Origin: Sabellastarte sp. h YS-2021
Taxonomy: Eukaryota > Annelida > Polychaeta > Sabellida > Sabellidae
Length of the DNA: 64,000 bases
NCBI GenBank assembly: GCA_964017235.1
Contig: OZ024929.1
Span: 157,527,609 to 157,591,608 of the forward strand
Direction of reading: 5' to 3'
In this document: piece by piece, positions 220 through 3,300 of the stretch
How the letters are laid out: each line of letters starts with the position of its first letter
Position numbering within the stretch: the stretch's first letter is position 1
Position numbers and translations under genes: made by a program
The notes under the pieces: model-generated
Seen by the model: the letters and a program-made list of their open reading frames with translations, nothing else
What the model was told of the DNA's origin: nothing
Databases searched by the model: none

Positions 220-373
220 CTGTGGTATTATCATACAGGATTCTGGACGCAATAATCCGACCACAAGGGCAGAAGAGTTTCTCTAGCTCTTGCTGGGTCA
301 TGTTCTTGGGCAACCCACATATATACAAGTTTGCTCCTTTTATACTTTCTGAACTGGGTCGTGCATACGACAC
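220..373 (-). CDS. elav: ELAV exon 4, copy A: first half of RRM2 (alternative)
   Basis: The exon is 154 nt, phase 0 to phase 1, like copy B. It has a long pyrimidine tract before CTATTAG and an ACAG/GTCAGT donor. It encodes [40 protein letters not shown] and [11 protein letters not shown]. It keeps the canonical VSYARPSS and QELE.LF blocks but has Cys in RNP2 (LYICGL) and a CPCG turn. Splicing copy B to copy A would shift the frame and meet TGA at 233-231. Skipping both would also shift the frame. One copy per mRNA is therefore expected. Confidence 0.93.
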
Positions 374-3300
374 CTAATAGTAGCAAAATAGAAGGCAGAA
401 AAAAGGCCCTAAAGTTAAATGAAGTACCTTTACAAAATAGTCTTTGCAATGTGTTTGCTAATTTTGAAAAAAAAAGAAAAGAAAAACTTAATATGGATTT
501 TTTTATACAAAACACCATATATAAAATAGGACAGGAAAATAGGAGTCCTAACTATATATAGAAGCAGGCAAAAAATAGTAGGGAAGAAGCGGAGCATGCA
601 AAAATGATATAGTTGTGTTCCAAGTGTGTGAATTGCTCTGGACTTCAACATGATGAGGTGATACTGTCACCTGAATTTGGAAGGTTATTGTTGATTTTCT
701 AGGGAAACATGAAGGGAACTTCATGTAAGATCTCAAACCAGACAAATTTTTCAGTATTTGGTATTACAGAGTAAGAATGGCAAAATTAACCAGAAACTGT
801 AAAGTATCTTCTAAAACAATGCATGAATTTAATAAAATTTGGGATTTTTGTGACAATCACACCTTATCTGTGATTTATGGCCCATTTTAAATTCTGGTAG
901 TTGTTTTTTTGGCTTTCTTACTCTACTAACTCTAACCACCAATGTCAGTTAAGTAAAAATTATAGTTAGCCAAGACAAAAAAATACAACAAAATGTTTGT
1001 CCATCACCATAAACTATTTAATGAAGCAACAAACATCCACATGTTACCAGTTTTAAAACTTAAATTACACAACAGATCAAAGATTCAGGAAAAATTCTAC
1101 CGAAGAGGGTTTTGTGATTTTTGAGACTAATTCAATAAAATTACATGAAAAGTATACTGGTGCGAATCACTGTTGAAACAAAATAGATTTACACTGGTAC
1201 AACTGAAATTTACTGCTCCATGTCGAAGAAATGGGTTAAGGTAAGCTATTTCATGTATAAACACATTCAGTAGTTCCCAATCCAACACAAATAACCAGAA
1301 TACTTTTAATTACTTAAATATTAAAAGACCCCATCTTCAAAGTGCTGCAATTTTAACTTTAGATAAGGAAGGTATTATTTTTGCTGGTGTTTAGCACCAA
1401 TTTTGTTGACAGAAATGTCTTATGTAGTCTGCTGGAAGCTACTGAACTAGTCACTTAACTCTTGTCAAAAGATTTGCCCGTACATTTAGCCTGGTACATC
1501 TGTGATGACTCTTCACCATTGGCATTCACCCTTCACTAATGCAAAACCAATGGGTGACAAAGCTTTAAAGTATTCAGAATCGTCTTTAGCACAAAATAGC
1601 CAGCACATATTTTTGAATATCCTGGTTCTGGTGAAGACAAATTATTTTTCTCCAAAAAAGCATTTTGTTTTATGTTTACAAAACTATATAAATGTTATCA
1701 ATATCAGGAACATCATAGAAGCTACTCTGACCGATTTTACTTTATCTTGTTGATGTAGCAAAGAGTTTCCAATGAATTCAGAATCAAGCGTTTTAAGGCC
1801 ACATCATACAGGATTGCTTTTCATAATGATTTACCCTTGGGTTTATATAATAGTGTACAAATTATCAATAATAGCAAGGATTCATGGACATGTCACAATA
1901 TAGCCAATGCCCATTAAAGCATTTTGGCTTAATTCTCAATCGTTTTGCACAGCAAACATTTTTTACTAGAATTAGCACAGAAGTTTTTCCAAAGTTCTTT
2001 TTTTATGTAAAGGATAAACTTACTAATTTTGCAAGTTTTAACAGACTTTTCTTGAGTACTGTAAAACTTCACCACTATATGTAAATGTTGGTTATTTTGA
2101 AAGCCAGTTTTAGGCAATGTACAAACTACTGTAGGCTATATTACAAGTGTTCTAAGGTGACTGAGTAAACATAAATAAAACAAAGACAAACAGAAATGGA
2201 AATACCAAATTAAAACTATAAAAACACACACACAAAAAGCTTCGCTGTACGGAAGCTGATGCCTACCAGTTTGGGGGTCACAAAGAATTCTGGACGTTAT
2301 TATATTGCCACACTTAGAAAAAAGGGTTTCCATTTCCGATTGTGTCATGGATTTGGGCAAGCCGCTAATGTAAAGGTTGGCGCCCTTGATGGATTCTGAG
2401 CTGGGACGAGCATTAGACACCTACAAGTCCAACGAGAAAAGTAAATCAAAACACACACACTTGAGAGAAAAGTCAACAAAATTACAAACTCAACAACATA
2501 TGTTAATAATTGAGTGATAATTTAAATAAATTAATCATAAACAATGGCAACACATATGTATATAGATAATTGCAAGTGTATATATGTAACAATACCATAG
2601 ATCTTCCACAGAGAGTATTCACAATCCGCTACATTTTGTAATTTATTTTTTTCAAAGTTTCCAATTTCTACTGAAGGATGTTGAAGACATTGTCTATTAG
2701 TCTATTACCAAAAGATATAAATCTCATTAACTGCATTATAAAAGAGTTCTTGCTGTTGGTTATATTAAGATCATTTCTGCAGCAAATAATAAAGTAAACA
2801 TTAACTATTCATACAAGTTTCTTGCACCATCAATTCTGAAATTACACGGGGAGAAATTTTTGGAAATCCTTGATACTTCACAATTTATTCTAATAAGTTT
2901 TAAGCATTTAACTTGCTGGCATCATGGATGTGAATATTGTCTGTGTGGCACACATCAATAACAGATGAAAAGATTTTCTTAACTAATAATGGATAGCACC
3001 ATGTAACTGTGAATAACAAGAAATGAAGGCATCCCCTGATGTACATGAACACAGATCCTCTACATCTTGAAACAACTATTTTTACACAAAAATACTCAAA
3101 GTTTTGCTTTCCAAAAATTTTGTTGCGCAGTAGAGTTGTAAGAACCAATAAGATTTCACAAAACTTAAAATAATAGAGGAGAAACAATAGTTGAGGAATA
3201 CAGGTCAAGAAAACAAATTTCTCTGAAACTGAGGTTTAAACCAAATTTTTCTTGCAAACAAAATGTGGCTGTGTAAATTGGCCATTGCCTGAAGTTTATC

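Follow-up and report, generated by a model that had tools for sequence, protein, structure and literature searches.

Gene layout

The window (the whole 64-kb stretch of DNA analyzed) contains part of a minus-strand ELAV/Hu gene that continues out of the window beyond position 1, with four coding exons identified. The N-terminal part and the first half of RRM1 are encoded at 9223-9499 (acceptor TTTTTAG/ATCACT, donor TCGG/GTAGGT) and the second half of RRM1 at 4472-4575 (acceptor TTTTAG/GTCAGA, donor TTAAG/GTTGGT), where the joined frame is open and the exon ends in phase 0 with the bases ATTAAG. Two adjacent homologous internal exons follow on the minus strand: the upstream copy, exon A (2267-2420; acceptor ...CTTGTAG/GTGTCT, donor ACTG/GTAGGC), and then the downstream copy, exon B (220-373; acceptor ...CTATTAG/GTGTCG, donor ACAG/GTCAGT). 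Both are 154 nt long, start in phase 0, end in phase 1 and have intact AG/GT sites, and each encodes the end of the RRM1-RRM2 linker and the first half of RRM2, for which they are predicted to be alternatives. The window therefore holds RRM1 whole and the first half of RRM2, with the positions of the second half of RRM2, the hinge and RRM3 falling below position 1.

ELAV proteins read U-rich RNA with their RRM1-RRM2 pair. For both joined peptides the best family is ELAV_HUD_SF (NCBIfam), at 250 and 253 bits for matches that cover the first 125 to 127 of 351 positions and lie below the whole-protein cut-off of 279, vs. 152 and 150 bits for the Sex-lethal family. RRM_1 is found twice in each joined peptide, and the best PDB match of exon B is HuD (1fxl, 81 bits). 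Judged by this sequence, comprising RRM1 whole and RRM2 in its first half in tandem, the locus is of ELAV/Hu type.

Elsewhere in the window, there are tandem arrays at 16929-18257 (351-bp unit, 3.8 copies, 85% matches) and 15760-16016 (135-bp unit, 1.9 copies). Open stretches at 59376-59627 (plus strand) and 20069-20323 (minus strand) have peptide patterns in common (e.g., YCKLRTIGKQLPTF) and are probably a dispersed repeat; no Pfam family was found for four other ORFs of the window, among them 59335-59589, which overlaps the first of these stretches.

Divergence and constraint of the two exons

The initial annotation had described a tandem duplicated RRM2 exon with the same length, the same phases and intact splice sites in both copies, and all of its quoted figures were reproduced. 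The two peptides are identical at 38 of 51 residues and differ at 13 sites; 27 of the 38 identical residues use different codons and 11 the same codon. At the nucleotide level 96 of 154 positions are identical, third positions account for 36 of the 58 differences (one-sided binomial p 7e-6 against 1/3), and 11 of 16 fourfold sites differ. The dN/dS comparison that had been proposed for the two copies (NG86) gave a dN of 0.24 and a saturated dS that is not estimable. The mutual score of the pair is 181 (BLOSUM62, ungapped, six frames of the 64 kb), the next best match being the homologous RRM1 exon at 58, and no third exon copy was found in the six-frame scan of the window.

This pattern of codons, third positions, fourfold sites and dN indicates that the copies are old and that the protein has been held by selection. 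The A/B pair by itself cannot show that both copies are held, so that an outside comparison is needed for constraint on each. Among the matches listed, exon A is identical at 46/51 residues to P0005 and at 45/51 to P0011 of the annelid Paralvinella, and the closest named rows for exon B are Haliotis P0160 (45/51) and Dimorphilus P0016 (44/51); the nearest rows are annelid for exon A, and gastropod and annelid for exon B. For RRM1, the top scores are scattered across mites, an annelid, a chiton and bees and point to no single phylum. Because each copy is conserved against its own type in other species, both appear to be constrained, and the earlier proposal that both copies are old and selected is supported for each of them.

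Reading frame and exon choice

Either exon A or exon B alone, joined after 9223-9499 and 4472-4575, leaves the frame open throughout. Inclusion of both shifts the frame and leads, in the joined-frame translation, to a premature TGA at 231-233 on the minus strand (read as 233-231), and skipping of both leaves the wrong phase and a shifted frame; the joined reading thus agrees with what the initial annotation had stated for both cases. Since the frame is broken by both or neither, faulty products should be decayed: mRNAs with both exons or neither would go to nonsense-mediated decay, as reported for U2AF1 in the accessible text of PMC5224494. Each mRNA would carry one of the two exons, and the choice would exchange the linker end, RNP2, helix 1 and strand 2 of RRM2. 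Such mutually exclusive use, as originally proposed, is probable in Sabellastarte on the basis of phase and frame, and in Pomacea the annotation assigns the two types to alternative isoforms of a single gene.

Exon types in other species

Three protein searches yielded the best 120 of at least 910, at least 435 and at least 358 proteins, respectively, and 276 proteins (P0003-P0278) were compared over the 51-residue segment; in this set, which was clustered at 90% identity and holds best matches only, the lack of a type in a species carries no meaning. The search for the second exon type in other mollusc and annelid ELAV genes that had been suggested, here carried out at the protein level, found both types within one species in Pomacea and Mya only, among the matches listed. 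In Pomacea canaliculata, ELAV-like protein 3 is annotated with an A-type isoform X3 (P0135) and a B-type isoform X2 (P0181), both from a contig of 26,524,634 bases. Downstream of the segment the two are identical at 207/207 residues, and upstream they are identical except for 11 extra residues in RRM1 of X2; within the segment they share 45/51 residues and differ at sites 3, 28, 32, 39, 49, and 50.

In Mya arenaria, the model P0123 has an A-type segment, nine linking residues (GITGLPYGT), a B-type segment and then the common remainder, and P0214 (isoform X1, from a contig of equal size to that of P0123) has an A-type segment only. The in-frame combination of A and B in P0123 is the sole result against strict exclusion, and our guess is that it is a gene-model artefact. 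Full-length ELAV frames of both types also occur in short contigs: A-type in P0008 (349 aa in 1,422 bases) and P0018 (371 aa in 1,895 bases), and B-type in P0191 (386 aa in 1,848 bases). As these contigs are far shorter than the gene, they most likely derive from spliced RNA.

We consider it very probable that the locus is a lophotrochozoan ELAV/Hu gene with an old tandem duplication of the exon for the first RRM2 half, and that each mRNA takes A or B. The two exons in the window are intact, homologous, and equal in length and phase, the frame is lost with both and with neither, and a snail has annotated isoforms of both types.

Further variation was observed outside the segment. The 11-residue RRM1 insert of Pomacea P0181 (residues 96-106) lies at the spot that matches the junction of 9223-9499 and 4472-4575, where Octopus P0200 and Nucula P0089 also carry inserts; this is perhaps a second alternative site, in RRM1. 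The A-type proteins P0005 and P0011 have extra residues after the segment, in the RRM2 loop between strands 2 and 3; these resemble honeybee elavl2 exons 3a/4a as given in the accessible text of PMC8553928, which may mean that more alternative exons lie shortly downstream of A and B.

Age of the duplication

A tree was built from 55 segments, comprising 49 proteins hand-picked from the 276 (lophotrochozoans, a chaetognath, four arthropods, and lookalikes without a species label), two Mya segments, the two window exons and two human segments. An A-type group of 26 of the 55 rows (support 92/88) contains gastropod, bivalve, annelid, sipunculan, bryozoan, and unlabelled rows together with exon A. 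Exon B falls outside it, as do Haliotis, Liolophura, Octopus, Dimorphilus, the arthropods and human. The B-type rows are not united in a single group: those of Pomacea X2 and Candidula, like the flatworm rows, are placed beside the A group (82/78), apart from the other B rows. In a second tree, from which eight long-branched rows had been removed (the bryozoan was one of these), an A group of annelids and molluscs was recovered at 72/81.

In 26/26 rows of the A group, site 39 has a residue other than K or R, and so it does in Helobdella and Platynereis outside the group. The four arthropod and two human rows have R39 in 6/6 and Y3 in 5/6, which points to exon B (Y3, Q28, R39) as the more ancestral-like state and to exon A (N3, S28, N39) as the derived one. 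All six of the A/B differing sites in Pomacea are among the 13 of the window (p 0.001 for 35 variable sites, 0.01 for 25), and the overlap of Mya with the window is 8/13 (p 0.027 and 0.075, respectively).

We tentatively suggest, as a possible reading of these trees and sites, that the RRM2 switch is older than the split of annelids, molluscs, and bryozoans and gives one neuronal gene two RNA-binding modes, with exon A possibly controlled through UG runs (see below). One isoform would then retain the tyrosine that is ancestral in the linker, along with the basic residue ahead of strand 2, and the other would lose both.

A rather unlikely alternative is that the duplication is real and alternatively used, but arose separately in the window lineage and in molluscs, with the likeness due to convergence at a few tolerant sites. 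AU tests give this reading room: exons A and B of the window as one clade are not rejected (p 0.21 for the 55-segment set, 0.125 for the reduced set), nor, in the reduced set with unlabelled rows assigned by likeness, are gastropods together (p 0.063) or molluscs together (p 0.295). As separate origins are not rejected, the best tree, in which the duplication predates the divergence of the phyla, is unproven. The trees draw on 51 columns only, two of the residues concerned also occur elsewhere (L28 in Centruroides P0087 and L3 in flatworm rows), and the sites that differ in the window pair overlap only weakly with those of the Mya pair. Against convergence, however, both trees have annelids and molluscs within the A-type group, the Pomacea sites fall wholly within those of the window, the order A then B is also that of the Mya model, and silent sites are saturated.

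It is improbable that one copy is a poison or switch-off exon, such that double inclusion lowers ELAV through decay and the protein difference is minor. Double inclusion does yield a premature stop, but a pure poison exon need not preserve 51 RRM residues, and both types are conserved as protein in other species and present in full-length frames. A dead relic, an assembly artefact or a misjoined allele is very improbable, given the intact frame and splice sites of both copies, a saturated silent divergence that speaks against alleles, and the pairing of the same two types in other species.

Differences between the two versions of the RRM2 first half

Five sites (3, 28, 32, 39, and 49) differ in all three within-gene pairs, i.e., those of the window, Pomacea and Mya; at site 39 these pairs have N, N, and Q in the A-type and R, K, and R in the B-type. 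A structure model of P0181 (pTM 0.31, mean pLDDT 67; site p corresponds to residue 141+p) was used for secondary structure inside the well-scored RRMs only. It places site 3 at the end of the last RRM1 strand, sites 28 and 32 in helix 1, site 39 just before strand 2 and site 49 in the loop after strand 2. The initial annotation had located the changes in RNP2, helix 1 and the CPCG/SKCG turn; the S/C change in RNP2 (site 19) is outside the common set, Pomacea having S in both isoforms. Because site 19 is not common to all pairs, RNP2 is of less interest than the linker and the beginning of strand 2.

Site 17 of the segment, which by alignment corresponds to Y109 of HuR, is identical in A and B. 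A change of HuR Y109 lowers RNA binding (PMC12570136, accessible text); for RNA-contact residues of HuR, the accessible text of that paper supports Y109 only, and none were found in that of PMC6344896. With site 17 the same in both, both isoforms should bind RNA, perhaps with changed strength or choice. Both proteins would keep the RRM fold and differ at the linker end, helix 1, the start of strand 2 and the following loop. These differences could alter how strongly RNA is bound, which targets are chosen or how partners bind, and an altered RNA specificity from the choice of A or B is plausible.

Control of splicing around exon A

The intron between exons A and B is 1,893 nt long with GT-AG splice sites, which makes crowding and a splice-class mismatch unlikely. 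Competing RNA pairing was rejected as an exclusion mechanism: between the intron upstream of exon A (E2-A) and the A-B intron, the longest perfect complement is 12 nt, with no excess over 100 shuffles of two-base blocks (mean 11.8, maximum 16); the comparison covers these two introns, the intron after exon B lying mostly outside the window. Inverted repeats numbered 29 as a raw count (25 listed). Thus, no built-in bar to A-B splicing (short intron, U2/U12 mix or competing pairing) was found within the window. Such a bar is not required for the mutually exclusive class, for which frame and regulators can suffice, and with none found a regulator is likely.

Two UG runs on the minus strand are candidate splicing-control sites: GTGTGTGTG at 2452-2460, 31 nt upstream of exon A, and TGTGTGTGTGT at 2224-2234, 32 nt downstream of it. 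The 64 kb contain seven UG runs of at least 7 nt on the transcript strand (27 on both strands), and none of those on the transcript strand is near exon B. The chance of two of the seven lying within 50 nt is ~5e-5, for a pattern noticed after the fact. CELF and TDP-43 bind UG repeats, and proteins of this binding type may steer the choice of exon A through the candidate runs on both sides.

Comparison with known systems

Mutually exclusive duplicated exons are already known; the probable pair described here lies in ELAV, an unexpected gene. The initial annotation knew of no mutually exclusive RRM2 exons in ELAV/Hu genes, and no published account of the ELAV RRM2 A/B pair is among the open-licence PMC matches listed. 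In the accessible text of an ELAV review (PMC8904962) the strings "mutually exclusive," "mollus," and "annelid" do not occur, and in that of a human tandem-exon survey (PMC9741552) ELAV is unmentioned. The A/B alternative is already in databases as the Pomacea isoforms, with no discussion of it among the open-licence matches listed; these isoforms and the Mya models represent the same 51-residue alternative, known there from annotation only.

Developmental studies of molluscs and annelids commonly use ELAV as a marker of neurons. If each mRNA does take one of two versions of this RRM2 half, expression work with a single ELAV probe may have lumped two distinct proteins together. The sequence basis of ELAV specificity would also become directly testable with such a natural pair, whose members are 6 (Pomacea) to 13 residues (window, Mya) apart in one RRM half.

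The unc-32 gene of Caenorhabditis elegans encodes a V-ATPase subunit. The choice between its exons 7a and 7b is set by a U/G-rich intronic element and the CELF-family protein UNC-75 (PMC3585155, accessible text). Mutually exclusive exons under a U/G-rich intronic element resemble the case proposed for the window, although unc-32 is a different gene and its element, UUGUUGUGUUGU, is no plain UG repeat. Honeybee elavl2 (exons 3a and 4a-4d) is, like the gene in the window, an ELAV/Hu gene in which splicing alters RRM2 and the skipping of an RRM2 exon shifts the frame; unlike in the window, the exons concerned are small inserted or extended ones in the RRM2 loop and hinge, with no swap of homologous halves, and the term "mutually exclusive" is absent from the accessible text (PMC8553928).

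The UHM of U2AF1 is an RRM-like domain, and by analogy this gene is a near twin in logic of the ELAV A/B pair. Vertebrate U2AF1 likewise has tandem duplicated exons (Ab and 3, 67-nt, giving U2AF35a and U2AF35b) in an RNA-processing protein, with a swap of part of the UHM that takes in RNP2 and a helix, and its transcripts with both or neither exon contain stops and are lowered by nonsense-mediated decay; the gene, domain, and lineage are different, and seven residues vary there vs. 13 here (PMC5224494, accessible text). If the one-of-two choice is true, splicing would switch the RNA-binding fold of ELAV itself, as it does for U2AF1, another RNA-processing protein.
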